From Sipunculus nudus (Eukaryota > Annelida > Sipuncula > Golfingiida > Sipunculidae), in contig CM049309.1 of assembly GCA_026874595.1 (NCBI GenBank), forward strand, positions 20,556,033 to 20,620,032: a stretch of 64,000 nt of DNA. The letters are read 5' to 3'. The notes beneath the pieces are model-generated. The model had not been told where the DNA came from. It did not search any database and worked only from the letters and a program-made list of their open reading frames with translations. Positions 1 through 61,147 of this stretch are shown here, in pieces. Position numbers and translations under genes: made by a program. Numbering within the stretch: position 1 is the first letter of the stretch; each line of letters begins with the position of its first letter.

Positions 1-755
1 TCTTTACAATTTGTGCCCTAGCTGTTAACAGATGTTCACATTTTGAAAGGTCTCAAAAATAGAGAAAACAATTCTTAAATAATAAAAAAGGTACAGGTGG
101 CGCCACCAGTCTGCAATACTGATGAAACATCTCATGATCAATATGTATGCCAAAAATCATGACCATCAGTAATGTAATTAATGAGATATTGAAGTTTTTG
201 TATGAAATTTTTGACTATTCTGGGGGGTACTTTGGGGCCCCATATCTCAAAGAATATATGTAACAGAGACCTTATTTCTGGTTTCCATGGAGACTTATCA
301 TAGGTCTCTCAGAATGTCAAGAATGAAGATTCTAGGTCCAGCCTTTATGATTTGTGCCCGGTTAACAGATGTCCACATTTTTAAAGGTCTCAAAAACAGA
401 TAACAAAATTCGTAAAAAATTTAAAAAATACAGGTGGCGCCACCAGTCTGCAGGAACTGATGAAACATCTCATGATCAATAGGTATGCCAAAAATCATGA
501 CCATCAGTGATGTAGTTAATGAGATATTGAAGTTTTTGTATGAAATTTTTCACTATTCTGGGGGGTACTTTGGGGCCCCATAGCTCGAAGAATATGGGTA
601 ACAGAGACCTAATTCCTGGTTTCCAAGGAGATTTTTCATGGACCTCTCTGGATGTAAAGTAAGAAGATTCCAGGTCCAGTGGTTACGATTTGTGCCTTGT
701 TAACGTACAGACGGCCGGATGGCAGGACGGACGACAGACAAAGAGTGATCACTAT

Positions 756-784
756 AGCTCAGATGACTTACAGTCAGCTGAGCT
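756..784 (+). other. Family A terminal hairpin, first copy
   Basis: AGCTCAGATGAC, loop TTACA, GTCAGCTGAGCT: a 12-bp stem with one mismatch, followed at once by an A-run. It sits just after a GGAC/GACGG-rich stretch. A further A monomer follows directly, so this 3' end is internal to the array. Confidence 0.8.
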
Positions 785-1125
785 AAAAATTGTAAAAATA
801 ATAAAAAACAGGTAGCGCCAACAGTCTGCAGAAACTGATGAAACACTTCATGATCAATATCTATGCAAAGAATCATGGTTATCAATGCATTAGTTGTTCA
901 GATACTTGAGCTTTTGTATCAAATTTTCCATTATTCTGGGGGGTACTTCGGAGCACCATAGTTTGAAGAATATGGGTAACAGAGACCTAATTCCAGGTTT
1001 TCAAGGAGATTTTTCATGGACCTTCCGGGATGTAAAGTAAGAAGATTCCAGGTCCAGCGGTTACGATTTGTGCCCTGTTAACGGACAGACGGCTGGACGG
1101 ACGACGGACAAAGAGTTATCGCTAT

Positions 1126-1154
1126 AGCTCTGATGACTTACAGTCAGCTGAGCT
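1126..1154 (+). other. Family A terminal hairpin, second copy
   Basis: The same stem-loop as at 756-784, again after a GACGGAC-rich tract and before an A-run. It closes the A1 array. Family B sequence starts immediately afterwards. Confidence 0.8.
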
Positions 1155-1157
1155 AAA

Positions 1158-4080: not shown

Positions 4081-4497
4081 AACACCAGTTGGTTCTAGGT
4101 AGGTTCTGCAGGTCACAGTTGCAGCATTTGGACACCATGATCAGATGGGCCGTCAGAGTTTGGCTTAAGCTACCCAAGGATATGCCCATTGTGTACTTCC
4201 ATGCTGTTACCAAGGAAGGCGGGTTGGATGTTCAGATGCTTAAACTGAAGATGCTTTTGTTGAGAAATAGAAGGACGGATAGGATGGTTGAGTTGCTGGA
4301 CCCGAGAATCTGTGCGATTGCTCAGACTGAAAGTTTTAGATTGGAGGCTGGCAAGTGGGTGACCCATGACAGGTACCAGGGGGTCACCATAGCAAACAAG
4401 GGGGACGCCAGGAGGGCCCTGGCGTAAAAGCTCTGTATGCAGCCGTTTATGGTAAAGGGTTGAGTCGAAGTGACTAACCTGACAACCCTTTGGATGG

Positions 4498-5565: not shown

Positions 5566-7860
5566 TGGTGCAGTATCTTATTATTATGTGGTGCAGTATC
5601 TTATTATTTCATAATAGAGTCAAAATCAATAGAAATAATTATATCCAGTGGATTATCTATTCAATATTCATGTGTTGATCATCTTGAGAGGTGACCCTTC
5701 ACAACACTGTAATCTCACATTTTTTTTATAGGCTCTTTTGTTCTGATGTAAAAAAAGGTTAACAGAATATCTATTCATAAACACTACAATCATAAATAAG
5801 CATTTCTATTCTTTGAGCAACAAAACTCCTTAACTTTCCTCACTAGTATTACAAGGTGCATGTTGAAATATTTAGGTAAATGTAGGTTTAATTTCAAGGG
5901 TGCATCTGAAGAATGTAATTTTTTTAGCCGAATACGCATCTTGTAATGTTGGGTGTGAGAAAATACATACCACAGTATGCATTATGACCTGCCAACTGCC
6001 CAATTTATAACCAGAAAAAAAAATTGCAGAAAAAATTGCATTTGAAAGATTTGTTATCAACATTTTATATGCACTATTACACTGCCCTTGCCTAATTCAG
6101 CATGTGAATGTTCATCAGGTACAAAACTGTCTATATACTGCTCGATAATTATGTGGCTAATTACTTGTTTACCAAAAACCTCGCCTGTAACATCTTAACC
6201 AAAGAACACCCAAAGATAATAGATAGATATGGTGTAATAAAACATATACACTGCAATTAATGTGGTGAAACATACATAGCTGAATCAGAATGTATCCTAA
6301 AACTATGGAAAGGAATATACAAATGTGTATTGTAATGTTGTGACAGCAGTCAGCCAGCACTGTAAAGAAACAATACACAAAGTACCTGCAACAAAATGAA
6401 CATCTTGGTGACTGAAAGTATTAAGTGATGGAGAAAGATTTGTAAATCTATAAAAATTAGGGCACAGGCCCTAATATTAAATTGGGACTCTGGCTGTTAT
6501 GATTTACCCATTTAAAACACCCTCGTCACATGACTAAACAACTGTTGACATATAGACCTGTAGGTGACAAACATGCTGATGAAGTCAATCTGAAGTCAAA
6601 ATCTCCTAATAAAATGTAATCAAAAGCTTTGATGTGAGCATTGCTTATGTCCATTTTATAATGAAACATTCAGGAAACAATTTCAAATCTACAGTGCAGC
6701 TATACTGTTATAAATTTTGAGAATATATATGCATTTTCTTTTTCTTCACTGAACCACATCATCTGTTCATCAATAGAAGAAACCTGTAATGACGTTATCT
6801 GAAATGTGCAACTTGACCATGAACATGCAGAGTTAGGCATGACCATTTTGTCTAATTTTATATGAATTATACAAGTAGCTGTATCTGGGTATTTTTAAAT
6901 AATAAAACCACAACAAAGCATTTTTGGGTCTGGTTGAGAACTTGTACACATGTAAGTGTATGTACAATATAAAATTCAAAAGCTTAACTAAATGTATAAA
7001 AAGCTGTATCCAACATATTGATAGAGAAGTGAAATCATCAAGCCCTATAAGCTTCGACTTCTATGAGGAAGGCTTAATTAGCAACTGAGAATCGTACCTG
7101 TAACATGGACAGAGAATCATACCTGTAACATGGACAGAGGGATGACCTACATGGGCTGTCTGCAGTCATCAGAGGTTGGTTTTACTTACCATGCCTTTAT
7201 CTGTTTCAAACAAATACCTATCTGGAACTTTTGAAGTAAGGAACTATTTTACCAGGCTTAATTTTGAAAAGAATCTGATTACGCACAAGGGACTGGTTAT
7301 TTATTCTGATATTACTTTGCAGCATTATCTGACAGTTTATTAGGTCTGGTGCTAACATACAATAAAGTAGAGCTACAAACTGGATTATCCATTATTTCCA
7401 GTTTTCTTCCTGTTATTTAAAATAAATGTCAAAAGTTCCAGATAACATGTGAACAACAAATCAACAAAGATGACTAGTGAACAAAACCGAACATACTTTA
7501 ACAGGACTTGAAACATTGAACCCTGAAAGCTAGATTATTAAAACTGGAACAATATTATAACTTTAAATCATGATTTATTCATCCACTGATAAGTATGAAT
7601 TGTTGAATATGAATGCTATAATACATTTATTTCAAGAAACCAGAACATTCTGACCTGTTTCCTTTTAGTTGCTCCTGTCAATGGACTTTTGTTGTCTCTG
7701 ATTAGGACAACTAAAACTCTGCTACTTGGACGATCACATCTGAAAATACAATTTGAAAATTGTAACTTTTGTGAACTATATAAATTAAAAAATGAGGTGT
7801 TAAATATGATACTTATATGACACTGTATGATGGCAGAAGAATTTTAAAAAGATTTAACAC
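5566..7860. other. AT-rich stretch without a recognised gene
   Basis: I see no protein motif, RNA gene or known repeat here. Two short tandem duplications are present: a 20-bp repeat (TGGTGCAGTATCTTATTATT) at 5566-5585 and 5589-5608, and a 25-bp repeat at 7087-7111 and 7112-7136. Short open frames look random. Confidence 0.6.
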
Positions 7861-7861
7861 A

Positions 7862-10490
7862 ACATGACAAGTAAGGAGTTAAGAATGTCAGGTGATTTAA
7901 CCTTGACACTATATGATAAGTAAGTTTAGAATGGGAGGTGATTTAAACTTAGACACAACATGACAAGTATTAAAGTTTAGAATGGCAGGTGATTTAACCT
8001 TGACACTGTGATAAGTAAGAAAGTTTTGAATGGCAGGTGATTTAACCTGAGACACAAGATGACAAGTAAGAAAGTTTAGAATGGCAGGTGATTTAACCTG
8101 AGACATAACATGACAAGTAAGAATGTTTAGAATGGCAGGTGAATTAACCTGAGACACTACATGACAAGTAAGAAAGTTTAGAATGGCAGGTGATAAAACC
8201 TGAGACACAACATGACAAGTAAGAAAATTTAGAATGGCAGATGATTTAACCTGAACACTACATGACAAGTAAGAAAGTTTAGAATGGCAGGTGATTTAAC
8301 CTGAGACACAACATGACAAGTAAGAAAGTTTAGAATGGCAGGTGATTTAACCTGAACACTACATGACAAGTATGAAAGTTTAGAATGGAAGGTGATTTAC
8401 CCGGAGACACTACATGACAAGTTAGAAAGTTAAGAATGGCAGGTGATTTAACCTGAGACACTACATGACAAGTAAGAAAGTTTAGTATGGCAGGTGATTT
8501 AACCTGAGACACTACATGAGACAGTACATGACAAGTAAGAAAATTTAGAATGGCAGGTGATTTAACCTGAGACACTACATGACAAGTAAGAAAGTTAAGT
8601 ATGGCAGGTGATAAAACCTGAGACACTACATGACAAGTAAAAAGTTTAGAAAGGCAGGTGATTTAACCTTGACACAACATGACAAGTAAGAAAGTAAAGT
8701 ATGGCAGGTGATTTAACCTGAGACACAACTTGACAAGTAAGAAAGTTTAGAATGGCAGGTGATTTAACCTGAGACACTACATGACAAGTATGAAAGTTTA
8801 GAATGGAAGGTGATTTACCCGGAGACACTACATGACAAGTAAGAAAGTTAAGAATGGCAGGTGATTTAACCTGAGACACTACATGACAAGTAAGACAGTT
8901 AGAATGGCAGGTGATTTAACCTGAGACACTACATGAGACAGTACATGACAAGTAAGAAAATTTTGAATGGCAGGTGATTTTACCTGAGACACTACATGAC
9001 AAGTAAGAAAGTTAAGTATGGCAGGTGATAAAACCTGAGACACTACATGACAAGTAAAAAGTTTAGAATGGCAAGTGATTTAACCTGAGACACTACATGA
9101 CAAGTAAGAAAGTTAAGTATGGCAGGTGATTTAACCTGAGACACAACTTGACAAGTAAGAAAGTTTAGAATGGCAGGTGATTTAACCTGAGACACTACAT
9201 GACAAGTATGAAAGTTTAGAATGGCAGGTGATTTACCCTGAGACACTACATGACAAAAAAGAAAGTTTAGAATGGCATCTGATTTAACCTGAGACACTAC
9301 ATGAGACACTACATGACAAGTAAGAAAGTTTACAATTGCAGGTGATTTAACCTGAGACACTACATGACAAGTAAGAAAGTTTAGATTGGCAAGTGATTTA
9401 ACCTGAGACACAACATGACAAGTAAGAAAGTTTAGAATGGTAGGTGATTTAACCTGAGGCACTACATGACAAGTAAGAAAGTTTAGAATGGCAGGTGATT
9501 TACCCGGAGACACTACATGACAAGTAAGAAAGTTTAGAATGGAAGGTGATTAACCCGGAGACACTACATGACAAGTAAGAAAGTTAGAATGGCAGGTGAT
9601 TTAACCTGAGACACTACATGACAAGTAAGAAAGTTTAGAATGGCAGGTGATTTAACCTGAGACACTACATGACAAGTAAGAAAGTTTAGAATGGCAGGCG
9701 ATTTAACCTGAGACACAACATGACAAGTAAGAAAGTTTAGAATGGAAAGTGATTTAACCTGAGACACATATCATGACAAGTAAGAAAGTTTAGAATGGCA
9801 GGTGATAAAACCTGAGACACAACATGACAAGTAAGAAAAAAAGAATGGCAGATGATTTGACCTGAGACACTACATGACAAGTAAGAAAGATTAGAATGGC
9901 AGGTGATTTAACCTGAGACACAACATGACAAGTAAGAAAGTTTAGAAAGGCAGGTGATAAAACCTGAGACACTATATGACAAGTTTGAAAGTTAAGAATG
10001 TCAGGTGATTTAACCTTGACACAACATGACAAGAAAGTAAATTTAGAATGGGAGGTGATTTAAACTTAGACACAACATGACAAGTAAGAAAGTTTAGAAT
10101 GGCAGGTGATTTAACCTTGACACTATGTGATAAGTAAGAAAGTTTTGAATGGCAGGTGATTTAACCTGAGACACTACATGACAAGTAAGAAAGTTTAGAA
10201 TGGCAGGTGAATTAACCTGAGACACTACATGACAAGTAAGAATGTTTAGAATGGCATGTGAATTAACCTGAGACACTACATGACAAGTAAGAAAGTTTAG
10301 AATGGCAGGTGATTTAACCTGAGACACTACATGACAAGTAAGAAAGTTTAGAATGGCAGGTGATTTAACCTGAGACACTATGTGACAAGTAAGAAAGTTT
10401 AGAATTACAGATGATTTAACCTGGACACTACCTGACAAATAAGAAAGTTTAGAATGGCATGTGATTTAACACAAGACACTACATGTCAAA
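7862..10490. repeat. 51-bp minisatellite array, about 50 units, with higher-order structure
   Basis: The unit reads GACAAGTAAGAAAGTTTAGA then ATGGCAGGTGATTTAACCTG then AGACACTACAT, 51 bp. Each unit holds the imperfect inverted pair CAGGT...ACCTG. Because 51 is 17 codons and one minus-strand frame lacks stops, that frame stays open over long runs, encoding a 17-residue repeat (SQVKSPAILNFLTCHVV). Units with a 12-15 bp insert (GAGACAGTACAT) recur about 420 bp apart near 8,510 and 8,930 in the same order. The left-end variants near 7,887-8,040 recur near 9,998-10,160. I do not call a protein. Confidence 0.95.
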
Positions 10491-12777: not shown

Positions 12778-14002
12778 CCCGCATAAAATTTCATATGGAT
12801 TGACGGGATAAGAAATTTTTTATTCGCCTTTAAACCTAGCACCCTCCCAAACCGTATATATACGTATCCCGCATGGCGGGGATGCGGCGCGTTGCCCGTA
12901 TATATACGGGTCCTGCAGGAGGAGGGTTAACAGATGACCACTTCATTTGAAGGTCTCATAAATAGAGAAAAAAATGCCTAAAAAATTGAAAAAAATCACA
13001 GGTGGGTCACCAGTTTGCAGGAACTGATGGAACACTCCATGATCAATATGCCTGCAAAGAATCACGGAGACTAATGCATTGGTTATTCAGATACTGGAGT
13101 TTTGTATCAAATTTTTAATTATTCTGAGGGGTACTTACTACGAAAGATATGGGTAACAGAGACCAAATTTCATGTTTTCACAGAGACTTTTTATGAACCT
13201 CCCTGGATATTAAGTTTGAAGATTCCAGGTCCAGTGGTTACGATTTGTGCCCTGTTAACAGATGACAGTTTATATTGCAGGTCTGAAAAAAAGAGAAAAA
13301 TTTTTTTAAAAATTTGAAAAAATACAGGTGGCACCACCAGTCTGCAGGAAGTGATGGAACATCCCATGATCAATATTCATGCAAAGAATCATGGTAATCA
13401 ATGCAGTGGTTATTCAGATACTTGAGCTTTTGTATCAAATTTTGCATTATTCTGGGGGGTACTTCGGAGCCCCATAGCTCCAAGGATATGGGTAATGGAG
13501 ACCTAATTTCTGCTTTCCATAAAGACTTTTCATAGGTCTCTCAGAATGTCAAGAATGAAGATTCTAGGTCCAGTCTTTACAATTTGTACCCTGTTAACAT
13601 TTTTTTTTAAAGGTCTCAAAAATAGAGAAAAAAATTTGTAAAAATTCAAAAAATATAGGTGGCACCACCAGTCTGCAGGAACTGATGGAACATCTCATGA
13701 TCAATATGTATGCCAAGAATCATGACCATCAGTGATGTAGTTAATGAGATATTGAAGTTTTTGTATGAAATTTTCTACTAATCTGGGGGGTACTTTGGGG
13801 CCCCACAGCTCAAAGGATATATGTAACAGAGACCTAATTCCAGGTTTCCAAGGAGATTTTACATGGACCTCTCTGGATGTAAATAAGAAGATTCAAGGTC
13901 TAGCGGTTACGATTTGTGCCCTGTTAATGGACAGACGCCCGGACTGACGATGGACAAAAGGTGATCCCTATAGCTCAGATGACTTACAGTCAGCTGAGCT
14001 AA

Positions 14003-14227
14003 CTAGAATATTGGTAGTCAACAACCGACCGTGTATCTGCCAAAATCAGAGTTGGACGAGTGAAGTGAGGCATGGATTGAGTGGCAAGGGGAAATTGAGT
14101 GAGGTGTGTTGCATAAAAGCATGGATGTCTGCAGCCGAAATGTGTATGTAGGTTGCGCCACCTACCACAAAATCTAGAAAGCTGTCCAAGTTGTATACAT
14201 ATTCAAAATTTTAGGCAGATAAGTCTA
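14003..14227 (+). repeat. Family C 5' fragment
   Basis: ACTAGAATATTGGTAGTCAAC, GTGTATCTGCCAAAATCAGA and GAGGCATGGATTGAGTGGCA match the start of the C elements at 25.4, 48.7 and 59.7 kb. It abuts the A2 terminal hairpin directly and ends near GGCAGATAAGTC. Confidence 0.8.
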
Positions 14228-15912: not shown

Positions 15913-18555
15913 TAACAAGGCCTGCAGGCCTAATGCGAACCTGTGCATTGGGAAATACACCAGGTATAATGTTTCAATGCTGGACCATTACTTTTCATGT
16001 AAATGAACAATGCAAGTACTAACTATTTTGAATATGAAACAATTACACAAAGATCACTGCTGAAATTCTGGCATGGGTGCACACAACACAAAAATGATTG
16101 TAGCTGGCACCACCAGTCTTGTATACAACAAAGCTATCAGAGATATATACATATGCCCAATTTCAGACTGATATATCAAACCCCTCCTGAGAAAACGCAG
16201 GGACACAAACTGTGCAAAAGTCATTGTAGGTTGCGACACCTGTCTTGTGAGCGAGAAAGCCATCAAAGACACATAGACAGGTCATTATATTAGGCCAACA
16301 ACTTACCTTGAGTCTGATGCATGGGGCTGACCAGGCTAAGGTGAGAAAGGCAGTTGCCCCGAGTGAACTGTGACAAATTGCTTGCTCAGGCTACTGCACT
16401 GAGTGAACTTATGACCTGCATAATCTGACACAGTTGGCAGTCTGCCAAATCTATAAATAGATCCAGGCTGAAATTTGGTGCCAAATCTGATGCAGTGGGC
16501 AGTCTACCACTGCTATAAATAGAATGCAGCTACTGCACAGAGTGAACTCCTGATCTATAACTGGCTGCACTGAGTGAACTCTTGACCTGCTGCCTAATCT
16601 GAAATAGTAGCCACACCATTGCATAAGCTCTCAGATTGGCTCTACATGCAGCCCTAAGGGGCTTGACACACATGAGGTGATCACTTGATACTCATGAGTT
16701 GATCACATGCTACCTATGAGGTTATCACATGGTGCCCATGAGGTGTTCACATGTCACCCATGAGGTGATCACATGCCTTGTGCTTGGCTGCACTGATTGA
16801 ACTCTTGACCTATATCTGGCTTCACTGAATAAACTCTTGATCTGTTGCCAAATCTGAAACAGTTGGCAGTTTCTCAACCTATTTAAAATTACAAACACAA
16901 TCTTGGCCTGTTGGTAAATCTGTTTACACATACTGAAAGACTCTGGCTAAAATACTTTTTAATCTTTTATATCATACTTCAACCATTCGAACAAACTTGA
17001 AAGATGTGATATAAAAGATTATTTCTGTGAAATACTGAACAATTTGGCTTGACCGTTTCGTCTGAGAAGTTTTTTAAAGGTTTTTAAATTTTTTTCTCAT
17101 TAAAATCTAAGAAAATGCAGAGTTTTTCAGATGGCTAATTTTTTACATTACATTTCATGATGCTAGCTCCAGTCGGTTTCGAATAGTATGGGTTAACTTA
17201 CAGAAGATGGACTATGGACGCTGCCACAACATCAAATTAGCTCACAGGCTCACTAAAAATTACTACAGATGCATATTGAATGCAAAATTATAATACAAAT
17301 ACATCTCACTGATGGCAAAATCTTGAATTAAGTTGAGTAGGGATACATATTATTTATAATCTATGTATAGCCGTCTTTATATACCCACAGAGAGCTGTAT
17401 ACCTGTGATTGCTAACATTGCCTGGTATGAAGTATATCCAAAATCATAAATCTACATTTTTTAAAAGCTTTTAAAAAACATTCTTGTCAATATTAACCAT
17501 AGATAACCTGAAATCTGAAGGTCTAGAGGCCTGATGTAAGGGATGCTGATAAACTGGTGCTAGGCTAGGTGAATCTGCTTTACACTGCTACCATATATGG
17601 TAAAATGACTTAATTCAATCTTTATAATTCAGCCATAATTCATTCTTTCGAACCATAAAAGATAATGATTATAAGAATAAAACAGGGGACTATTCTTGAA
17701 AAATATTAAACAAATTGGCCTCAGTGGCGTCAGTCTAAAATTGTTTTGCTGGTTTAAAAACCATTTGAACAAACTTAAATTATCAACATCTAAGGATAAT
17801 TTATGTGTTAGATTTAAGAATTTGGCCCAGTGGTTTTTGAGAAGAAGATTTTTGTAGCCACTTAGCTAAAATGGGCTGTTATGGTATATGACTAAATTCA
17901 GCTTCCCATAACTTAGCCAAAAGTCACTGAACTGAGACCATTTGAACAAACTTTAGAAAGCACTACCCTAGGATCATTTCTGTGTGATATTAAACAATTT
18001 GGCCATATTGTTTTAGAGAAGAAGTTATTTGTAGCTGTCAGTATGATACGGGCACTGATGACCCCTGTACAAAAAAGGCCGATGCAGGTCAATCCCTCAA
18101 TTTCAGACATGACTCATGTGATCAACATTGGCATAAAATTTGGTGATGATAGCTCCAGCCATTTCTGAGATTATAATTTTAGTATGCTTTTTTGGACAGA
18201 TGACTAAGTTCAACTTCCTGTAACTCTGCCAAAAAAAAAAGAAACTTAAACCATTCGAACAAACTTAAGAGAGATTGTTCCAGGAATCATTTTTGTGAAA
18301 TATTTGACAATTTGGCTGAACAGTTTCGGAAAAGAAGTTTTTTAAAGCTTTTTTAGCTTTTTCTCTATAAAATCTAAGAAAATGCAATTAGCCAAAAAAT
18401 AAGCAAAATCTGATAGAGTTTTTTAGAAGACTTATTTTTTGCATAATATTTTGGGATGCTAACTCTTGCTGTTATCAAGATAGTATAGGTTAATGTACAG
18501 ATGACGGACGCTGGACGCCGCCACACCATCGCATAAGCTCACAGGTTCGCTAAAA
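15913..18555 (+). mobile_element. Family D element, copy D1
   Basis: It starts at AACAAGGCCTGCAGGCCTAA (14-bp palindrome at 15,918-15,931) and ends at CACCATCGCATAAGCTCACA then GGTTCGCTAAAA. The 5' GCGAACCTGTG (15,935-15,945) is the exact reverse complement of CACAGGTTCGC (18,540-18,550), an 11-bp inverted end match. A GACGGACGCTGGACGCCG tract precedes the 3' end. Inside are ACTGAGTGAACTCTTGACCT units and monomers ending in variants of ATAAAATTTGGTGATGATAG. Compared with D2 it lacks about 1 kb (the part matching 30,680-31,720). No transposase seen. Confidence 0.75.
16661..16777 (+). repeat. Short tandem repeat inside D1
   Basis: About five units of roughly 22-24 bp around CCATGAGGTGATCACATG, several spelling the palindrome TGATCA. 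A shorter version (two or three units) sits at the matching place in D2 near 30,430-30,480. Confidence 0.75.
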
Positions 18556-19570
18556 GAGGTGGCGCACCCAGTCTGCAGAACCTGATGGAACACCTCATGA
18601 TCAATGAATGCCAAAAATCATGACCATTAGTGTTTTAGTAATTAAGATACTGCAGTTTTTGTATCAAATTTTTCATTATTCTTAGGGGTATTTTGAAGCC
18701 ATACGGCTTAAAGGATATTGGTAACAGAGACCTAATTTCAGTTTTCCATGTAGACTTTTCATGGGTCTCCCTGTGTGTCAAGAATGAAGATTCTAGGTCC
18801 AGTCTATACGATTTGTGCCCTGTTAACAGATGTTCATATCTTTAACAGTCCCAAAAGTAGAGAAAAAAATTTGTAAAATAACCCGAACAAATATAGGTGG
18901 TGCCACCAGTCTGCAGAAACTGATGACACATTCCATGATAAATATCCATGCAAACAATTATGGTTATCTCTGCATTAGTTGTTCAGATACTTCAGCTTTT
19001 GTATCAAATTTTTCTTTATTCTGAGGGGTAATTGGGAGCCCCACAGCTCCTAGGATAAGGTTAACAGAGATCTAATTTCAGGTTTCCATGTAGACTTTTC
19101 ATGGGTCTCCCTGTGTGTCAAGAATGAAGATTCTAGGTCCAGTCGTTACGATTTGTACCCTGTTGACAGCTATCTACATCCTTAAAGGTCTCATAAATAG
19201 AGAAAAAAAAATTGTAAAAATTTGAAAAAAATACAGGTGGCACCACCAATCTGCAGGAACTGATGGAACACCTCTTGATCAATATGTATGCCAAATCATG
19301 ACCATCAGTGTTGAAGTTATTGAGATGCTACAGGTTTTTTTATTAAATTTTCCATTATTCTGCGGGGCAATTGAGAGCCCCACAGCTCTTAGGATAAGGG
19401 TAACAGAGACCTAATTTCAGGTTTTCATGGAGATTTTTCATCAACCTCTCAGAATGTCAAGTTACAAGATTCAATGTCCAGTGGTTACGATTTTTGCCAG
19501 GTTAACGAACAGCATGATGGACAAAGAGTGATCGCTATATCTCAGCATGACTGAAAGTTAGCTGAGCTTA
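18556..19570 (+). repeat. Repeat family A, array A3
   Basis: Three monomers with motif variants GGTGGCGCACCC (18,559), GGTGGTGCCACC (18,897) and GGTGGCACCACC (19,237). It closes with a worn terminal hairpin (TATCTCAGCATGACTGAAAG then TTAGCTGAGCTTAAA) near 19,538-19,570. It abuts the 3' end of D1 directly, so it has no family A 5' terminus of its own. Confidence 0.8.
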
Positions 19571-43811: not shown

Positions 43812-43842
43812 GGTGTAAAAATGTCCTGGCAGACTCCCTTTC

Positions 43843-44840
43843 GTGCTTTCAGATGCAGCGGTTCCGACAAGGACCGACAATGGCCTCTGTTCCGACTCCT
43901 TATCCTCCACTTCACGCATCGCTGAACTGAAGTCGGCAGGCATTTCATTACTGAAGAAGTCGCTGGCAACATCCACAAGAGGAGCCTATACCAACGTATG
44001 GCGTAAGCTTAGGGAATTCTGTGCCAGTCTAGGCTTTGAGGAGAAGGCAAGTCCTCCAGTCAGTGCTGCAACAATATTCCTGTTCTTAATTAATCTTTAC
44101 ACAAAGGGAATGGCAGGTAGCTCTCTACTGTCCCATTGTTCTGCAATTTCTTATGTGCACAAGATGCGGTCCCTAACAGACCCCACAGAATCTCCTGCCA
44201 TCAGAAAATTGGTTTGGGCTGCAAAAAGACAAACACCCACTTTGGACACTACACTTCCCATCAAATCTGAAGTTCTACAAAAACTGGTAGATTCTCTAGA
44301 AAACTACCATTACTATGACAGAGCCCTACTTAAAGCACTGTATCTAACATGTTTTCATGGGTTTTTCTGAGTAGGGGAACTAGTGCCACATTCAGAAAAG
44401 GCCAAAACAACGGTTTTACAGTTAGGAGATGTTAGGTGCTTAGGTAGCAATGGAAAGGTAGAAAGGATTAGCCTTTTGATCTGGAGTTCCAAGAATCTTC
44501 AGGCAGGTTCCATAGAGAAAGTCACCTTACAGCGTAGAAACAGACTCTGCCCTGTCACCGCACTCCTTCAATTTTTGCGACTTCGCAGTACAATCACGGG
44601 CCCCTTATTCTCATATCCTGGGGATATGGACACCCTTCATTAGATCCAAATTTGATACAGCGCTCAGGGCATGGGTGTCTGCAGCAAAACTGGATGGGAA
44701 AATATCGGGGACATTCCTTTAGGATAGGAGCTGCTACCGAAGCAGCAGCCAGGGGATTGTCCGATTCACAGATCAGGGATATGGGCAGGTGGCAGTCAAA
44801 TGCATTTCATACATACATACGGTTACACACAGTGCAATAA
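43843..44840 (+). pseudogene. Tyrosine recombinase, DIRS-type, catalytic Arg replaced by a stop
   Basis: The N-terminal core-binding domain is open from 43,843 (TSTRGAYTNVWRKLREFC; AATIFLFLINLYTKGMAGSS). The catalytic domain reads ALYLTCFHGFF*VGELV, where the first catalytic arginine should stand at TGA 44,368-44,370; CGA to TGA is a CpG transition. The frame continues to 44,643 (LQRRNRLCPVTALLQFLR; GPLFSYPGD). After two frame changes come SKFDTALRAWVSAAKLDG, GHSFRIGAATEAAARG (H-x-x-R coded 44,712-44,723), MGRWQSNAFHTYIRL and the nucleophile Tyr at 44,814-44,816. Such enzymes integrate circular DNA without target duplication. The gene starts 31 bp after the gag-like gene, with no reverse transcriptase between or after. 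Confidence 0.9.
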
Positions 44841-46124: not shown

Positions 46125-47105
46125 TGGAAGTATTCCCTTATTGTCTCAAAGGAACAAAGTTCTAGTGACCCATTTTTTAGTTTAGTAGGACTAACCGTAT
46201 GCTGAATTTCCAATTATTAGATGCAACATTTCGAAATGTGCCAGTTCAATAGATGAATGGACAGATGGACAACCAACTGACAACGGACCATCGCTACAGC
46301 TTTGCTATAACTTGGCTGAGCTAAAAATCAAAATTTATTTTAGCATTTTTTTTTATGTATTTGCTAATTTTGCAACTAAGTACACACAATTAAATTAAGA
46401 AGCTGCACTTTGTTCTTCTGTGCAGATGACATTTATCTAGCCCAGTAGACCTATGCCTAGTTATATACAGAAGCTACCCTTTTGTTCTAAACAGCAGCCT
46501 TCATCAGTCCAAAGAGTTCATCACTGCTACTCAAACGGAAGAGTTATCTAATCATCAGCTGCCCTTTTTAATATGTACCTACCCTGAATAAATTCCTGAT
46601 TCTATTTAGCAGATGTTCTCACCTTGTCTGTGAAAGGATGTGCAAATCATGACCTCCAAGCTCTTGTAGTATCTGCAATTACATCAACAGCACACAAATT
46701 AACCAACACAGATATTCACCAATAATCTGACATAAGCTGCTGAATTACTAACTCCATTAGCATTTATCAATCAAAATTATTTGGTGGTATCCTGTAGTCA
46801 TGATATATCAAAGCATGGGACATTTAAGGCTTTAAACTCCAACGGCAACCTCTAATGGCCACAAGCTGTCATGCTTCATTTGTCCAAGGCGCCTTAAACC
46901 GCCCTCTAAGGGTCATTTTACATACCCTTACTTGGTGTTAGTTCAGGTGCTAATATATTAACTGTCACCCATCATATTTGTACTTAAATGAAAGAGACGG
47001 ACGGACGGACAATGGACCACAACTATAGCTCAGTTGACTTATAGTCAGCTGAGCTAAAAATCATAAAAAAATAAACAAAATACAGGTGATGCCACCAGTC
47101 TACAG
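46125..47105 (+). repeat. Second copy of the B2/F/A-end block
   Basis: It matches 39,789-40,731 with few substitutions. It includes the B tail (ending near 46,325), flank F with the additional 43 bp at 46,618-46,661, the GACGGACGGACGGACAATGG tract, an A-type hairpin (about 47,025-47,053) and the start of an A monomer (GGTGATGCCACCAGTCTACAG region). The match ends at 47,104-47,105. Confidence 0.9.
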
Positions 47106-48736: not shown

Positions 48737-50142
48737 ACTAGAATACGGGAAGTCAACAAGCGACTCCGTGTATCTGCCAAAATCAGTGTGGAATGGGTGA
48801 AGTGAGGCATGGATTGAGTGGCAAGGGGAAATAGGGGGGTGTGTGGCATATTAGCATGGATGTCTGCAGCCTAAATGTGTATGTAGGTTGTGCCACCTAC
48901 CACAAATCCAGAAAGCTGTCCAAGTTGTATACATTTGCAAAAATTTAGGCAGAAAAGTCAAACCACTACATGTATATGAATGGTTTTAGCCCATGGCAGA
49001 CAAACAGACAGATGCTATGCAAAAATGGTTGCAGGTGGCCCCTCCAGTTTTGTGTATGATAAAGACCTATGTGAGATCTAAACACATGCACAATTTTGGC
49101 CCAATCTGTCAAATGGTTCCCAAGATATGAGGTTGGATGTCTGCAGCATAAACTAGAATGAAGGTGGCGCCACCTGTCATAAAATCAAGAAAGCTGTCCA
49201 CGATGTATAAACCTGCAAAATTTTAGGCAGTTATGTCAAACAACTACAGAGATATGAGTGATTTTAGCCCACGGCAGACAAACAGACAGACGCTGTGAAA
49301 CAAAAGTTGCAGGTGGCCCCTCCAGTTTTGTGTATGATAAAGACCTATGTGGTATCCATACACATGCAAAATTTTGGCCCAAACGGTTCCGAGATATGAT
49401 CTTGGATGTCTGCAGCGTAAACTAGAATGTAGGTGGCGCCACCTGTCATAAAATCAAGAAAGCTGTCCAGGATGTATAAAACTGCAAAATTTTAGGCAGA
49501 TATGTCAAACCACTGCCGGGATATGAGTGATAATGTCCCATGGCAAAAATGGTTGCAGGTGGCACCACCAGTTTTGTGTATGAGAAAGAGCTATGTGAGA
49601 TCTATACACATGCAAAATTTTGTCCTGATCGGTCAAACAGTTCCAGAGATATGAGCTTGGATGTCTGCAGCGTGAATGCGAATGTAGGTGGCGCAAACTG
49701 TCAAAAATCAAGAAAGCTGTCTAGGATGTATATGCATGCCAAATTTCAGGTGAATTAGTCAATTCACTGCAGAGATATGAGTGATTTTAACACAAAGCAG
49801 ATGAACAGATGGACACTGTGCAAACACCATTTTTTGTGTATGTTATAAAGCTATCCAAGGGCTACATTTGTATAAAAATTTTTCCTGATCAGTCAAATGG
49901 TTCCCAAGATATGGGGGTTTTATGTGTGGAAACAGACGCACAAATGGATGCTGGGCAGACAGAAAAGGTCAGAGGTCAAAGCAAATTGGTTAGGCACCAC
50001 TTCACATTTGACCTGATAATTGGTGTAAGTTTCAGAAAAATCGGTCCAGTAGTCTCAGAGGAGTTCTCCGGAAAGAACACTGCAGCGGCGGCAGAACCCT
50101 TTCAAAAACATAGTATCTGCAAAACTTCGTTTTGGCGGATAC
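48737..50142 (+). mobile_element. Family C element C2, nested in A5
   Basis: It starts ACTAGAATACGGGAAGTCAA with GTGTATCTGCCAAAA nearby and ends in the hairpin GTATCTGCAAAAC/TTC/GTTTTGGCGGATAC (50,113-50,142). Four or five tandem units lie between, with exact GGTGGCGCCACC at 49,163 and 49,432 and variants elsewhere. It occupies the same position in A5 as C1 does in A4. Confidence 0.85.
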
Positions 50143-51880
50143 AAAAATACCAGTCTGCAGAAACTAATAAAAACACTTAATGGTCAATATCCATGCAAAG
50201 AATCATGCTGATCTCTGCATTAGATGTTCAGATACTTCAGCTTTTGTATCAAATTTTCCATTATTCTGAGGGATACTTCGGACTATAGCTTGAAGGATCT
50301 AGGAAACAGAGATCTAATTTCAGGTTTCCACAGACACTTTTCATGGGCCTCCCTGCATGACAAGAATGACGATTCTAGGTCCAGTTGTTACGATTTGTAC
50401 CCTGTTGACAGATAACCACATCTTTAAAGGTCTCAAAAATAGAGAAAAAAATCCGTAAAAATTTGAAAAAAATACAGGTGGCACACCCAGTCTGCAGAAC
50501 CTGATGGAATACCTCATGATCAATATGTATGCAAAAAATCATGGCCATCAGTGTTGTAGTTTTTGTGATACTGCAGTTTTTGTATCAAATTTTTCATTAT
50601 TCTGGGGGTATTTTGGAGCCATACAGCTTGAAGGATATGGGTAACAGAGACCTAATTTCAGGTTTCCATGGAGACTTTTCAGGGGTCTCCCTGTGTGTCA
50701 AGAATGAAGATTCAAGGTCAAGCTGTTATGATTTGTGCCCTGTTAACAGATGTTCATATCTTTAAAGGTCTAAAATAGAGAAAAATTCAAAAAAAAAAAA
50801 ACCCTAACAAATACAGGTGGTGCCACCAGTCTGCAGAAACTGATGAAACACTCCATAATCAATATCCACGCAGAGAATCATGGTGATCTCTGCATTAGTT
50901 GTTCAGATACTACAGTTTTTGTATCAAATTTTCCATTATTCTGAGCTGTACTTTGGAGTGCCATAGCTCAAAGGATATGGGTAACAGAGACCTAATTTCA
51001 GGTGTCCATGGAGACTTTTCATGGGTCTCCCTGTGTGTCAAGGATGAAGATTCTAGGTCCAGTCTTTACGATTTGTACCCTGTTGACAGATAACTACATC
51101 CTTAAAGGTCTCAAAAAAGGAGAAAAAAAATTGTGAAAATTTGAAAAAATACAGGTGGCGCCACCAGTCTGCCAGAACTAATGGAAAACCTCTTGATCAA
51201 TGTGTATGCCAAAAATCATGACCATCAGTGTTGTAGTTATTGAGATGTTGCAGTTTGTTTTTATCAAATTTTCCATTATTCTGGGGGTAATTGGGAGCCC
51301 CACAGCTCAAAGGATAGTTAATGAGATATTAAAGTTTATGTATGAAATTTTTGACTATTCTGGGGGGGGGGGGTACTTTGAGGCCCCATGGCTCAAAGGA
51401 TATGGGTAACATGAGACCTAATTTCTGGTTTCCATGGAGAATTTTTTTAGGTCTCTCAGTGTGTCAAAAATGAAGATTCTAGGTCCAGTCTTTACGATTT
51501 GTGCCCTGTTAACAGATGGTCTCAATTTTAAAGGTCTCAAAAATAGAGAAAACAATTCATAAAAAAATAAAAAAAATACAGGTGGCGCCACCAGTCTGCA
51601 GGAACTGATTGAACATCTCATGATCAATATGTATGCCAAAAATCATGACCATCAGTGTAGTTAATGAGATATTGAAGTTTTTGTATGAAATTTTATACTA
51701 TTCTGGGGGGTACTTTGGGGCCCCGTAGCTCGAAGGATATGGGTAACAGAGACCTAATTTCTGGGTTTCAAGGAGACTTTTCATTGTCCTCTCAGAATCC
51801 CAAGATTCTAGGTCCAGCAATTATGATTTGTGCCTGGTTAATGGACAGACAGACAGACAGACGGACAGACGGAAGGACAT
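50143..51880 (+). mobile_element. Family A element A5, monomer array
   Basis: Five or six monomers in the same order of subtypes as A4, with exact GGTGGCGCCACC at 51,154 and 51,581. A shortened or deleted monomer lies around 51,310-51,340. The 3' GGACAGACAGACAGACAGAC-type tract (51,843-51,880) is present, but the terminal hairpin is missing: the sequence changes at ACATTGGCCGGCTGG. Confidence 0.85.
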
Positions 51881-53357: not shown

Positions 53358-53460
53358 CAGAAGGCCGTGTAACCAATCATTATTGTGAAGTCTGATGGGC
53401 CAACACTTATGGGCCGTGATTGACTCCAGGTCCTCAAATTAGACTGGCACCGAATCTTTA

Positions 53461-54329
53461 ATGTACATGCTGATCAGGGGATGTCAGAGCTATTCAACAG
53501 TGTTTAAATCAAAGTTAGGGACTGTACGAGGTTTTAAAGCTGATACTAAACTGAGAAAAGGGGCACAACCTATATTCTATAAAGCTAGACCAGTACCCTT
53601 TGCTATTAAGCCACAAGTTGATAAAGAACTGGACAGGTTAGAAGCAGCTGGAGTTATAAAGGAAGTGGAACATACTGATTGGGCTTCGCAAGTTGTGTGT
53701 GTACCAAAAAAGGGAGGATCAGTCAGAATTTGTGGAGACTTTAAGGTTTCTCTTAATCAAGTGTTGCTAGATAATCCCTATCCATTACCAGATGTGGAGG
53801 ATATATTTGCCACATTAGAGGAAGGCAGCGTCTTCACCAAGATTGACTTATCTGAGGCGAATCAACAGATGGAGCTTACTGAGAACAGTAAGAACTACAT
53901 GAAAATTCATACACAACTCGCATTAAACCAATACCAGAGACTAGCTTATGGCATTGCCACTGCCCCTAGCCTGTTTCAGGCCATGATGGATCAAGTGTTA
54001 CAGGGTATGGAACAGGTGAAATGCCGGAAAGATGATATTTGATCAAAACTAAACCAGATGACCATGTAACAGTAGTAGAGGAAGTGTTGTCCAGATTGAA
54101 AAAATATGGAATCAAGGCTAATAAAGCTAAGTGTGTTATTCAACAGGGTAGTGTTGAGTATATGGGCTACAAAGTCCATCAAGATGGGAGACATCCCTTA
54201 CCTGAGGAAGTGGCAGCCATTGTGAAAGCACCTGAACCACAGAATGTGCAGGGATTACGTTCATATTTGGGTCTTTTGAATTATGATGGCAATTTTATTA
54301 GAAATTTGTTTGCTGCAGCTGCTGCATGA
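53461..54329 (+). pseudogene. Reverse transcriptase part of the Ty3/gypsy remnant
   Basis: ARPVPFAIKPQVDKELDRLE, VIKEVEHTDWASQVVCVPKK, SVRICGDFKV, NPYPLPDVEDIFATL and VFTKIDLSEANQQMEL follow the gypsy order, with the first catalytic Asp kept in KIDLS. The usual Y-x-DD box reads CRKDDI: both aspartates remain but the aromatic residue is Arg. A frame change follows immediately, and the next frame gives LSRLKKYGIKANKAKC, VEYMGYKVHQDG and LRSYLGLLNYDGNFIRN. Confidence 0.9.
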
Positions 54330-55640: not shown

Positions 55641-58600
55641 ACTAGATGTGTTGGGTTGGACACCTGGATCAACTGTGGCTGGCCATAAGCTGCCTGGATT
55701 CCCTTGTATGCCTCGCCTCAAGCATACAGGTGACTCAAGAGGGACTGGAGAGCCAAAGTCTGACAGGGTCTCATAAAAACATTAATAAAAGCTACAATTT
55801 TTGGCCAATTTCTTTCAGCTTTCTAAACTTAAAAGCTGAAATCCTTATGTGTGCATGATATGAAAATTATATCAACAGTGCTCACGGGAAACAAACGTGC
55901 CATGGTCACAGTTGGGCAAAATTTAAGGTACTAATTTTATATGTATGCTAATAACTTATAAAATTTGAAAAATTCAGAACTAATTTTGGGTATTCAATTG
56001 AATCTTGATTAAATAATGTTACATCCCTGACAAAAAAATCTCTAGCTTCAGCAATGCCCTTGTTAAGGGAGTAAATATATTTCTTGATTTTTTACAAAGT
56101 GCATTATGTTTGGGCCCATAACTTAAAACAATACGCAATACTGACATCATTCTGGCATGTGCATAGAGAATGAAAAATATGTATATTATTTATGATTAAA
56201 GTCAGATCAGTGGTTTTGATATTAGGCAGTCTTGAAGTGTAACAATGGGTTTTTAATGGAAAAATGAAGTTTTTCATTAATATCTCGAAGGTATTAAGTC
56301 CTAGTGACAAAATTCTTGGCATGGTAGGGGATTTTGGAGACATCTAACTGTATGTCGAATTTAAGGAACTTAGAGCTGAAGATGGGGAGCTGAGCTCTTG
56401 CAAACTGCATAACACTAGCTTGATGTAAACAATATGTTACATGGTGCTTGAAAACTTGATTAAAATCTACAGTTTTTGATCAACTGGTTTTAAATTTTTA
56501 GTGTTAACAGTTGAAATGCTAACAAAAACATGCTGTGAAAATTAAATCCACAGTACTTACAGTAAAAAAACCTGCCATGGTCAAAGTTGGGCAAAATTTA
56601 AGGTACCAATTTTTTATTTTTATTAATATTTTAAAAAATTTAAAAGATTTTCATCTAATTTTGGGTATACAATTTAATTTTGATTAATTAAAGTTATATT
56701 ACTGGAAAAAAGGTCCATAGCTTTAACATTTTTTGTGTTAAGTGATCAAATATCTTTCCTGATTTTTTACAAAATGCATCATGTTTGGGCCCATAACTTT
56801 TTTAAATTAAATAATACAGACATAATTTCTGGCATGTATATAGGAACTATATAGAGAAATATTTATGGTAAATATGAGGAAAAACAGATAAGTGGTTTTG
56901 ATAATAGGCACTCCTGAAGTGTGAAAATAGGTTTTAAATAAAAAATTGAGGTTTTTCCTTAATTTCTCAAAGGAACGAAGTTGCAAAGACCCAGTTTTCG
57001 GCTTGGTAGGAGATCTTGGGGACATCTAACATTATGCCAAATTTTGGATTCCTAGGTCTGGACTAATACCTTTATTTCACATTCAAGGGAATAATACATT
57101 TAAGTTTATATATTATTTAAGCATATCCACTTTTTCCATTAAAATAGTTTTTATCTGATTAATTTTTTTATTTACAAGTTTTATAAATTTGTATTAAAAA
57201 AACACTGAAAATATAAGTTAAAATATTAGAATTCTTAGTTGCAATCATTATACATCCAGAGTGTAGCTCGTATTGGGTCATATTATGCATACACATATAT
57301 TTTTATTATTTTTAAATCACAAATTTTTAAACTGAATTTAAAAGAAAATAATGCCACAACATGGCATCTGCAAGATTATTCCTTGAATCACTATTAAAAA
57401 GTTTTGCACATTGGAGTTTTCAGTACATGCTTAATCTTATTCACCAAAATAAAATAAGATTCTGTAAATTTGGTAAAATAAAAACATCTTTTCAAATAAA
57501 GTATACACACTGTTGGTTGAATGAGGGACAAACAATATCATTATGCTAATTACAATCTAAGCTTTAATTTATTCCTGGAATTAATAGTCAATTTCACACC
57601 TTGTGAAGTTTTTACTCTTCTCAAGGAAGGAATTACTTATCTGATGAACATCCACACTTTCATAGCAATACACCACTTTGTGGACACAATTAAATGTGCA
57701 CTTTAATCATTGTAACCCTGGTGGTTAATACAAAATCTAAAATGTAGCATAGCCAAGAATAAAATGAAATACAGAAAATTATAACATTCATCTAGTTAAT
57801 GCATCATCTTGGGGGGGGGGGGGGGGGGGTGAGCAGGGCAGAGAAGAAGCCTGCTAGTAGTGGCCCAGCTGAGCCAAGACAAGCTGCCTGGGGTGGGTTA
57901 CATAATGCAAGTGAAGGCTTTACTACTAGGTGGGCTAGATGTAAACAACACTTGACATGGTGTATGAAAACTTGAATAAAAGCTACTCTTTTCAATCAAT
58001 TCCTGTGAAATTTCAGATTTTAAAAGATTAAATCCTTATGTATATATGCTGTGAAAATTAAATCAACAGTGCTAACAGAAAAAAAACATGCCATTGCCAA
58101 AGTTGGACAAAATTTAGGGTATTGATTTTTTATTTAAGCTAATAACTTGAAAAATTTGCAAAATTCAGATCTAATTTTGGGTAAACAATCGAATCTTGAT
58201 TAAATAAAGTTATATTCCTGACAAAAAGTCTCCAGCTTCAGCAATTCTCATCTAAGGTGAGTAAATATATTTCTTGATTTTTAAAAAAGTGCATTATGTT
58301 TGGGCCCATAACTTAAAAAAAATACACAATACTGACATCATTTCTGGCATGTGCATAGCGAATGTATAGAAAAATATGTATATTATATATAATCAAAGTC
58401 AGATCAGTGGTTTTGATATGAGGCAATCTTAAAGTGTAACAATGGGTTTTTAATGGAAAAATGAAGTTTTACATTGGTATCTCGAAGGAATTAAGTCCTA
58501 GTGACCAAATTCTTGGCATGGTAGGGGATTTTGGAGAAATCCAACTGTATGCCAAATTTAAGGAACTTAGAGCTGAAGCTGGGGAGCTGAGCTCTAGCAA

Positions 58601-59682
58601 ACTGCATATCACAAGCAATATGTGACATGGTGCTTGAAAACTTGAATAAAATCTACAGTTTTTGATCAACTGGTTTCAAATTTTTGGTGTTAACAGTTGA
58701 AATGCTAACAAAAACATGCTGTGAAAATTAAATCCACAGTACTTACAGGAAAAAAATGTGCCATGGTCAAAGTTGGGCAAAATTTAAGGTACCAATTTTT
58801 TATTTTTATTAATATTTTAAAAACTTTAAAAGATTTTCATCTAATTTTGGGTATACAATTTAATTTTGATTAATTAAAGTTATATTACTGGAAAAAAGGT
58901 CCATAGCTTTAACATTTTTTGTGTTAAGTGATCAAATATCTTTCCTGATTTTTTACAAAATGTATTATGTTTAGGCCCATAACTTTTTTAAATTAAATAA
59001 TACAGACATAATTTCTGGCATGTACATAGGAACTATATAGAGGAATATTTATGGTAAATATGAGGAAAAACAGATGAGTGGTTTTGATATTAGGCAGTCC
59101 TGAAGTGTGAAAATAGGTTTAAATAATAAATTGAGGTTTTTCCTTAATTTTTTAAAGGAACGAAGTTGCAAAGACCCAGTTTTCGGCTTGGTAGGAGATC
59201 TTGGGGACATCTAACATTATGCCGAATTTTGGATTCCTAGGTCTGGACTAATACCTTTATTTCACATTCAAGGGAATAATACATTTAAGTTTATATATTA
59301 TTTAAGCATATCCACTTTTTCCATTAAAATAGTTTTTATCTGATTATTTTTTTTTATTTACAAGTTTTATAAATTTGTATTAAAAAAAACACTGAAAATA
59401 TAAGTTAAAATATTAGAATTCTTAGTTGCAATCATTATACATCCAGAGTGTAGCTCGTATTGGGTCATATTATGCATACACATATATTTTTATTATTTTT
59501 AAATCACAAATTTTTAAACTGAATTTAAAAGAAAATAATGTCACACCATGGCATCTACAAGATTATTCCTTGAATCACTATTAAAAAGTTTTGCACATTG
59601 GAGTTTTCAGTACATGCTTAATATTATTCACCAAAATAAAATAAGATTCTGTAAATTTGGTAAAATAAAAACATCTTTTCAA
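55641..59682 (+). repeat. Family B monomer blocks (two rounds)
   Basis: B-type monomers at about 55,895-56,400, 56,572-57,060, 58,085-58,600 and 58,760-59,245 alternate between two subtypes about 680 bp apart. The whole pair with its connecting sequence is repeated at an offset of about 2,186-2,190 bp (compare 57,054 with 59,240, and 57,361 with 59,548). So an older duplication of about 2.19 kb underlies this stretch. Repeated phrases include GCCATGGTCAAAGTTGGGCA and TTTGGGCCCATAAC. The short open frames (57,361-57,706 and others) repeat with the DNA and show no motif. Confidence 0.85.
57811..57829 (+). repeat. Poly-G run, 19 bases
   Basis: Nineteen consecutive G. The duplicate at 62,233-62,245 has thirteen. 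This is the only length difference I noticed between the two copies of the 4.4-kb duplication. Confidence 0.9.
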
Positions 59683-61147
59683 ACTAGAATACGGGTAGTC
59701 GACAAGCGACTACGTGTATCCGCCTAAATCAGAGTGGAATGGGTAAAGTGAGGCATGGATTAAGTGGCAAACGGAAATAGAGTGAAGTGTTGCATATCAG
59801 CATGGATGTCTGCAGCCAAATTGTGTATGAAGGTTGCCCCCCCCCCCCCTACATCAAAATCCAGAAAGCCGTCCCAGTTGTATACATATGCAAAATTTAA
59901 GGCAGATAAGTCAAACCACTACATGTATATGAGTGATTTTAGCCCGTGGCAGAATATCAGATGGACGCTGAGCAAATATGGTTGCAGGTGACTGCACCAG
60001 TTTTGCATATGATAAAGAGCTATGTGAGAACTATACACATGCAAAACTTTGGCCCAATGGGTCAAACGGTTCCCAAGATATGTGCTTGGATGTCTGCTGC
60101 ATAAACTAGAATGCAGGTGGCTCCACCTGTCATAAAATCAAGAGAGCTGTAGGGGATGTATAAACCTGCAAAATTAAAGCCAGATATGTCAAACTACTGC
60201 CGAGATATGAGTTATTTTATCCCATGGCAGACAAACAGACAGCTGTGCAAAAATGGCTGCAGGTGGCGCCACCAGTTTTGCGTATGTTATAAAGCTCTCC
60301 AAGGACTACATTTGTGCAAAAAAATTTTCCTGATCAGTCAAACGGTTCCCGAGATATGAGCTTGGATGTCTGCAGCGAAAACGTGAATGTAGGTGGCGCC
60401 ACCTGTCATAAAATCAGAAAAGCTATCCAGGATGTATACGCATGCCAAATTTCAGGTGAATTAGTCAAGTCACTGCAGAGATATGAGTGATTTTAACCCA
60501 AGGCAGACAAACAGATGGACACTGTGCAAACATGGTTGCAGATGGCGCCACCATTTTTTGTGTATGTTATAAAGCTCTCCAAGGGCTACATTTGTGCAAA
60601 AATATTTTCCTGATCGGTCAAACGGTTCCCGAGATAATAGCTTGGATGTCTGCAGCGTAAACGTGAATGTAGGTGGCGCCACCTGTCACAAAATCAGAAA
60701 AGCTATCCAGGATGTATACGCATGCCAAATTTCAGGTGAATTAGTCAAGTCACTGCAGAGATATGAGTGATTTTAACCCAAGGCACACGAACATATGGAC
60801 ACTGTGCAAACATGGTTGCAGGTGGCGCCACCTTTTTTTGTGTATGTTATAAAGCTCTCCAAGGGCTACATTTGTGCAAAAAAATTTTCCTGATCGGTCA
60901 AACGGTTCCCGAGATATGAGCTTGGATGTCTGCAGCGTAAACGTGAATGTAGGTGGCGCCACCTGTCACAAAATCAGAAAAGCTATCCAGGATGTATACG
61001 CATGCCAAATTTCAGGTGAATTAGTCAAGTCACTGCAGAGATATGAGTGATTTTAACCCAAGGCAGACTAACAGATGGACACTGTGCAAACATGGTTGCA
61101 GGTGGCGCCACCATTTTTTGTGTATGTTATAAAGCTCTCCAAGGGCT
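59683..61147 (+). mobile_element. Family C element C3, in family B sequence
   Basis: It begins ACTAGAATACGGGTAGTCGA with GTGTATCCGCC near its 5' end, joined to family B at TTTTCAAA. Five tandem units follow, with exact GGTGGCGCCACC at 60,262, 60,392, 60,672, 60,821, 60,952 and 61,101. The last three units are nearly identical (about 280 bp apart), suggesting recent homogenisation. A poly-C run lies at about 59,838-59,848. The 3' hairpin is missing because the duplication junction at 61,148 cuts the last unit. Confidence 0.85.

Follow-up and report, generated by a model that had tools for sequence, protein, structure and literature searches.

Why should one 12-bp palindrome, GGTGGCGCCACC, recur in tandem repeats that otherwise look dissimilar? 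The question is raised by a 64,000-nucleotide stretch of the Sipunculus nudus genome (GenBank assembly GCA_026874595.1, contig CM049309.1, positions 20,556,033 to 20,620,032, forward strand; hereafter the window), for which an earlier note, made from the letters alone, had reported 22 exact copies in four repeat families, A, C, D and E, and had proposed a retained functional site. The present analysis makes it very probable, taken jointly, that these families are diverged copies of one monomer and that the C-type repeats form the centre of a non-autonomous Helentron (HINE). The palindrome belongs to a longer box, TRYA-GGTGGCGCCACC, and we favour, at a probability of roughly 0.4, the reading that this box is kept by selection on replicating Helentron-type elements, with a host protein as its putative reader.

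Abundance of the palindrome in the window and the genome

All 22 exact copies were recovered at their reported starts, and they account for every exact copy in the window. None appeared in 100 dinucleotide shuffles of the window, which rejects a chance origin; with up to two mismatches, 53 copies were found against 0.42 expected. A genome-wide count against a control, proposed together with the motif, agreed: the 1,426,538,692 bases (1.43 Gb) of 153 contigs held 111,729 exact 12-mers, as against 14 of the reversed pattern. The density is about one per 12.8 kb genome-wide versus one per 2.9 kb in the window, and 12 stretches of 10 kb (each from a different contig, at positions picked blind to content) held two exact copies, both in locus L001. 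Among 325 counted copies with up to two mismatches to the 12-mer, the letters upstream are TRYA (T in 300, R in 309, Y in 304 and A in 320). TRYA flanks one side of at most about 80% of genomic sites (44,607 and 45,148 oriented matches), an upper bound since sites with TRYA on both sides enter twice. The two copies per unit of family C had been described as about 130-150 bp apart; successive copies do lie mostly 129-149 bp apart, although the full range is 120-158. Known RNA families gave no match in the window at gathering thresholds.

Descent of the repeat families from one monomer

Forty regions of contig 1 were fetched; they cover the first 74 listed genomic sites, hold 74 exact 12-mers and sample the first 0.86 Mb of that single contig. 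By eye, all 74 sites lie inside repeats of types A, C (a and b monomers) and D to K, the labels F, G, H, I, J and K being added here to the original four. When the flanks were searched with the 12-mer masked, 68 of the 74 sites were assigned to a family; since 13 of the 74 are the representatives themselves, the independent assignments number 55 of 61.

The families had been held to be otherwise different, with flanks that do not match, and this was not borne out. When each family in turn was scored with a profile built from the others, the 12-mer excluded, 14 of 16 representatives outscored every one of their 400 shuffles (A, I, Ca, Cb, Cb2, D, D2, E, Eo, F, G, G2, H and J); those of K and E2 outscored 397 of 400. 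Scores are low (2.0 to 28.7 bits), with small margins for some, as for A at 5.9 bits versus 5.1 for its best shuffle. In A, E and F, profile and sequence are matched at identical positions, and most families are in register. Pairwise alignment of the 80 bp downstream of the motif linked 8 of 45 pairs of families, including one out-of-register pair, and the best downstream alignments fell within 6 of register in 23 of 45 pairs versus 43 of 300 with shuffles; upstream, one pair of 45 was linked. Weakly conserved stretches further downstream of the 12-mer are also common to the families. Since left-out families are recognised without the 12-mer, A, C, D, E and the further types are best described as diverged copies of one monomer. 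Separately, 'D' and 'K' were considered as families with an exact consensus among flank-found copies and rejected, those copies being mostly C-a-like.

The C-type element, a probable non-autonomous Helentron

The search for C-element ends returned 19 rows, of which 8 were removed as chance or internal left matches, and 11 complete elements were found. Each is laid out as CTAGAATAC..palindrome..GTATCCGCC on the left, C arrays in the centre and GTATCCGCAAAAC..GTTTTGGCGGATAC on the right. Read on the other strand, the order becomes 5′ subterminal inverted repeat (subTIR) with its inverted repeat, microsatellite, central repeats, 3′ subTIR, palindrome and CTAG, which is the HINE plan as described for Drosophila, mites and oyster (PMC4067079, PMC7492417). 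The subTIRs of about 13 bp, GTATCCGCC(A/T)AAA on the left and TTTTGGCGGATAC on the right, are both intact in 7 of the 11 copies (L076-L080, L082 and L084) and worn at one or both ends in L001, L087 and two elements of the window. The inverted repeat complementary to the 5′ subTIR lies a few bases from it, in the hairpin GTATCCGCAAAAC..GTTTTGGCGGATAC (-10 kcal/mol, 0 of 200 shuffles as good). A (GGC)n microsatellite lies inside the right end of young copies and is shorter in others, and a palindrome near the 3′ end, GTAGTCGACAAGCGACTAC, stands 11 nt from the ..CTAG end on the other strand. The base A borders both outer sides in all 11 copies, that is, T|T in the orientation of the element. The left end has 14,314 genomic matches at up to three mismatches, and L076-L080 carry 7 or 8 exact 12-mers each. 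At least 143 genome matches to Helitron_like_N were found, several in frames longer than 2,200 aa.

Both complete C-type HINEs of the window lie on the forward strand, as do all features below for which a strand is named. The first (25405-26779, +) has the left end CTAGAATAC.. with a worn palindrome, the subTIR ..TATCCGCCAAAA.. and the right hairpin GTATCCGCAAAACTTCGTTTTGGCGGATAC at 26750-26779; its array (25515-26658, +) holds exact 12-mers at 26119, 26268 and 26405. That hairpin had been a candidate for an A-element end, which was rejected in favour of the C-element right end. The second (48738-50142, +) ends in a hairpin at 50113-50142 with one letter worn, and its array (48845-49925, +) holds exact copies at 49163 and 49432. 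A third element (59684-61153, +) has an intact left end, a right end that was not found, and exact copies at 60262, 60392, 60672, 60821, 60952 and 61101. A truncated one (14003-14216, +), with the variant GGTTGCGCCACC at 14151, directly follows an A-element end. The third element is flanked by two stretches, 56726-59584 and 61148-64000, that are 99.8% identical over 2,859 bp, and a 92% copy starts at 55761; the pair has the look of a recent duplication, or of a larger repeat into which the C element inserted.

The A element is known from one end, the opposite end not being delimited. Its end consists of (ACGG)n and a 29-nt hairpin, AGCTCAG..CTGAGCT (AGCTCAGATGACTTACAGTCAGCTGAGCT), followed mostly by an A-tract; in the window the hairpin lies at 29121-29149 (+), after an (ACAG/ACGG)n tract at 29060-29105, and related hairpins lie at 756-784, 1126-1154 and 13972-14000. 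Terminal hairpins, that of the A element represented by a related sequence, fold at -6.4 to -11.2 kcal/mol, with 0 of 200 shuffles as good. A and C elements thus have different known ends and the same box. A C element stands directly before an A array in two cases in the window, and the same junction recurs in L061, L062, L068, L074 and L075. The A-element hairpin also abuts an A monomer, the join lying some 27-30 bp upstream of the 12-mer (window 784-811, 40682-40711 and 47055-47085; L026 133-162); these joins are perhaps head-to-tail copies that lost the inner end, as reported for rolling-circle elements.

Conservation of the box between and within families

In A, C-a, C-b, G and F1 the 12-mer occurs most often in its exact form. 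Among copies found by their flanks it is exact in 34 of 101 for A, 38 of 56 for Ca, 7 of 27 for Cb and 27 of 38 for Cb2; a separate listing for Ca gave 68 among the 100 matches listed, and the figures for G and F1 were 75 among 100 and 37 among 67 matches listed. For E, 6 of 12 flank matches below contig 1 position 941,349 carried it, the listings being compared by eye. The flanks are far less alike: across single representatives of seven families mean column identity is 0.428 upstream and 0.452 downstream, where the best 12-column window has 0.638, and across majority sequences of six labels the downstream average is 0.504 (best window 0.673), a figure inflated by a label D that is truly C-a-like there.

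Within families the contrast is slight. For A, 20 loci were sampled from the 100 listed places that match exactly a 30-mer lying about 170 bp away from the motif (with up to three mismatches this 30-mer occurs at 40,374 places), and the C sample comprised 12 loci hand-picked among 100 listed places of a C-a flank pattern that occurs at 23,280; window copies were added, and 98 of 149 rows were kept for A, 76 of 81 for Ca and 73 of 79 for Cb. Twelve-column windows better kept than the motif make up 32% in A, 9% in Ca and 20% in Cb; with CpG columns removed, other windows as good as the motif make up 13%, 11% and 14%. Non-CpG motif columns stand at 0.939-0.956 versus 0.880-0.913 elsewhere. The motif's own CpG columns rank lowest within it in A (0.77 and 0.74) and near the bottom in Ca and Cb, and they are better kept than other consensus CpGs (means 0.60 in A, 0.75 in Ca and 0.59 in Cb). 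Inside versus outside the motif, substitution therefore differs modestly: the motif is somewhat better kept and decays nearly as fast as its surroundings. The modest edge and the CpG decay mean that single copies do not look maintained. Unequal conservation of the palindrome halves (58 changes left versus 87 right) was considered and dropped, the difference coming mostly from A and being reversed in F1, 'D' and K.

The proposal of a retained functional site thus has support between families, where the box is the commonest form while flanks are at 45-50% identity, and not within them. One might object that the families have simply diverged from a single ancestor and that the 12-mer is not specially conserved; the first half of that objection is right, and the special conservation is still present across most families.

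Interpretation and alternatives

Conservation of the 12-mer between but hardly within families fits selection on replicating elements followed by decay. On the favoured reading, GGTGGCGCCACC is the core of the box TRYA-GGTGGCGCCACC in an old monomer from which the central tandem repeats of several kinds of HINE are built. Copy number is accounted for by transposition together with several monomers per element, as seen for the C element, and selection on still-replicating elements would keep the 12-mer, which would decay once an insertion dies. Since the A and C ends are unrelated, their Rep partners are presumably different, and a common box would favour a host DNA-binding protein over Rep; we put such a putative reader forward tentatively. 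That HINEs with different ends kept one host-protein site and so seeded more than 100,000 identical, tandemly spaced copies, which with a CTCF-like or zinc-finger reader would give an invertebrate a genome-wide, transposon-made collection of regulatory or insulator sites, is distinctly unlikely. In a search with CTCF fingers (266 genome matches), many zinc-finger matches clustered on contig C16 among the matches listed; this large C2H2 set possibly includes candidate repeat readers. Titles and abstract openings of the papers listed on Helentron central repeats and on Helitrons, CTCF and satellites report no protein that reads HINE central repeats.

Several observations weigh against this reading. 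True D copies found by flank carried the exact box in 0 of 5 cases, and single copies assigned by flank to E, E2, Eo, G and G2 lacked it. An F2 sub-lineage (AAACTTG flank, GGTGGCGCCCCC) has C at position 10 in 32 among 33 copies listed. The palindrome as such is accordingly not essential, given that sub-lineage and the inexact D copies, and TRYA is conserved as well as the palindrome. In addition, no monomer was found at three Rep loci of about 3.5 kb each, whose element ends lie outside the coverage. Sampling also leans towards intact motifs: C loci were picked with the motif letters in view and may be biased to intact copies; the 12-mer in flank-found copies was placed at the best match found within 15 bp, a procedure biased towards the motif; and 13 of 16 representatives were obtained through the exact 12-mer, so that superfamily members without it are under-sampled. 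Copies assigned to 'D' or 'K' outside motif regions are mostly C-a-like, so these labels are impure and were not counted as families. As a separate observation, F2 is an amplified sub-lineage with a broken palindrome.

Many of these points would be expected if the 12-mer had no function and were a relic of the ancestral monomer, preserved through recent expansion, homogenisation and sampling, an explanation we consider rather unlikely. Within-family conservation is unexceptional by the window ranks given above (top 32%, 9% and 20%, or 13%, 11% and 14% without CpG), changed versions amplify, as F2 does, flank-found D copies are inexact, and the families were mostly discovered through the motif itself. 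Against this, no altered form of the 12-mer outnumbers the exact one in A, C-a, C-b, G or F1, in spite of flanks whose best window between families rises no higher than 0.64-0.67, and the 12-mer contains a CpG, the part of it most prone to mutate. Another reading makes the box a site for the Helentron machinery, either a Rep-binding iteron or an internal stop signal that resembles the 3′ palindrome and lets monomer number vary. This would suit its position in elements of the kind moved by Rep/helicase, the presence of Helitron_like_N genes, and the fact that the box and the element ends are both palindromic. We judge it unlikely: the box is common to A and C elements whereas their definable ends are not, it folds weakly (-3.1 kcal/mol, matched by 9 of 200 shuffles) in comparison with the terminal hairpins (-6.4 to -11.2 kcal/mol, 0 of 200), and the three short Rep loci contain no monomer.

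A putative CTCF-class architectural site is an improbable identity for the box and serves as a lead. A CTCF-like gene at C11:67037578 is 56% identical over the finger region, and three successive fingers (3-5 of the query) carry the human contact residues TGER, ESKR and DYKR, with other fingers differing at one contact residue or more. Within the box, YAGGTGGCGC agrees with YAGRKGGCRS, the right-hand portion of the consensus CCASYAGRKGGCRS derived genome-wide in human (PMC6746451), but the left part, CCAS, is unmatched, so that the full core CCASYAGRKGGCRS is not present. Moreover, the consensus is degenerate at 5 of the 10 positions that match, agreement with one factor out of the many known carries little weight, and the box is palindromic and densely tandem. 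In favour of this identity, a review describes an enrichment of CTCF sites at the borders of domains in the squid Euprymna (PMC10658181). In print, 23 papers contain the 12-mer or one of two parts of it; in one of them, on chromatin insulators (PMC13083895), the string belongs to a guide-RNA sequence for a site called HS+44. Very improbable, finally, is a hot spot of recombination or array expansion, for which the mollusc satellite phBglII400, with 13 of 16 junctions inside a 12-bp palindrome, is the precedent (PMC5139131). Eight of 35 A-array starts do fall between model phases 157 and 181, no more than about 16 bp from the motif (173-184). Seven of these eight, however, are the same junction of C element and A array (L061, L062, L068, L074, L075 and two in the window), and the eighth adjoins an E-type stretch; 11 of the 35 starts lie at 100-124 and 21 of 35 ends at 94-121. 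In C arrays the motifs lie at 80 and 211; of 17 such arrays, starts fall at 166-176 in 12 and ends at 180-192 in 13, the remaining borders being cut by locus ends or disrupted, and one start (cut by a locus end) and one end come within 10 of a motif. The suggestion that the motif is a recombination point letting monomers expand thus finds little support, array borders generally lying away from it with the C/A junction as a repeated exception.

Relation to known systems

Satellite-like repeats with short common segments are already known from HINEs; what is unusual here is the same box in elements with differing known ends. The closest descriptions concern Cg_HINE of the Pacific oyster, with Cg170/HindIII central repeats, which has the same end of subTIR, inverted repeat and microsatellite, a 3′ subTIR with palindrome, and central satellite-like arrays in fixed orientation, and is reported to insert in T-rich sequence; one such element carries two related arrays, and some of its monomers have two common short segments and are otherwise dissimilar (PMC7492417). 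Unlike Cg_HINE as described there, the present system has one box across elements with differing known ends, in monomers both of about 130-150 bp and of about 338 bp; the comparison with the published segments is by description only. The bivalve family BIV160/Cg170/CvA is likewise strongly diverged, with two conserved motifs and both satellite and mobile-element locations, but its junctions are described as not significantly tied to the motifs, and its likeness to the present monomer is by description only (PMC5139131). DINE-1/HINE elements of Drosophila and mites share subTIRs of about 13 bp, an inverted repeat near the 5′ subTIR, a 3′ stem loop, a microsatellite and central repeats, and their preference for TT may correspond to the T|T borders of the C copies, whereas that account describes no conserved palindromic box in the central repeats (PMC4067079).

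Satellite-like arrays within Helentron-type elements have been described in several animals, and short boxes in them outlive their surroundings. An exact, abundant box common to elements with differing ends offers a one-species system that could show which protein reads it, if any does, and whether such elements distribute regulatory sites.

Other features of the window

A arrays with monomers of about 338 bp lie at 2-1085 (+; exact 12-mers at 96 and 433, GGTAGCGCCAAC at 811), 12925-13944 (+; variants GGTGGCACCACC at 13327 and 13658) and, adjoining an E-type stretch, 18557-19500 (+; variants at 18558, 18896 and 19236). The array at 26777-29072 (+), with exact copies at 27777, 28121, 28457 and 28793, directly follows a C-element hairpin, and two further arrays, 50148-51316 and 51413-51840 (both +), hold exact copies at 51154 and 51581. 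D-type monomers at 16103-16240 (+) are inexact (GCTGGCACCACC, GGTTGCGACACC), and a second pair lies at 29799-29937. F-type monomers (22156-22317, +) have GGTGGCGCCCCC at 22156 and an exact 12-mer at 22306, and an (ACGG)n tract lies at 22550-22594. E-type monomers (31107-32879, +) have GGTGGCACCACA at 31107 and exact copies at 31532 and 32868.

By eye, open stretches at 53443-54042, 34202-34654 and 43819-44370 resemble reverse transcriptase, integrase and tyrosine recombinase, respectively. Elsewhere in the assembly, contigs C60, C61, C62, C66, C72, C74, C75, C89 and C123 hold ten uninterrupted cytochrome oxidase I frames, nine of them 577-578 aa long with nearly equal scores; these contigs are perhaps bacterial companions or assembly contaminants. 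A myosin exon pair of the assembly scores highest against the squid structure PDB 3i5f, followed by vertebrate and other chains, in keeping with a probable lophotrochozoan source. The window also contains, at 7857-10489, a tandem array of about 51 copies of a 51-bp unit.

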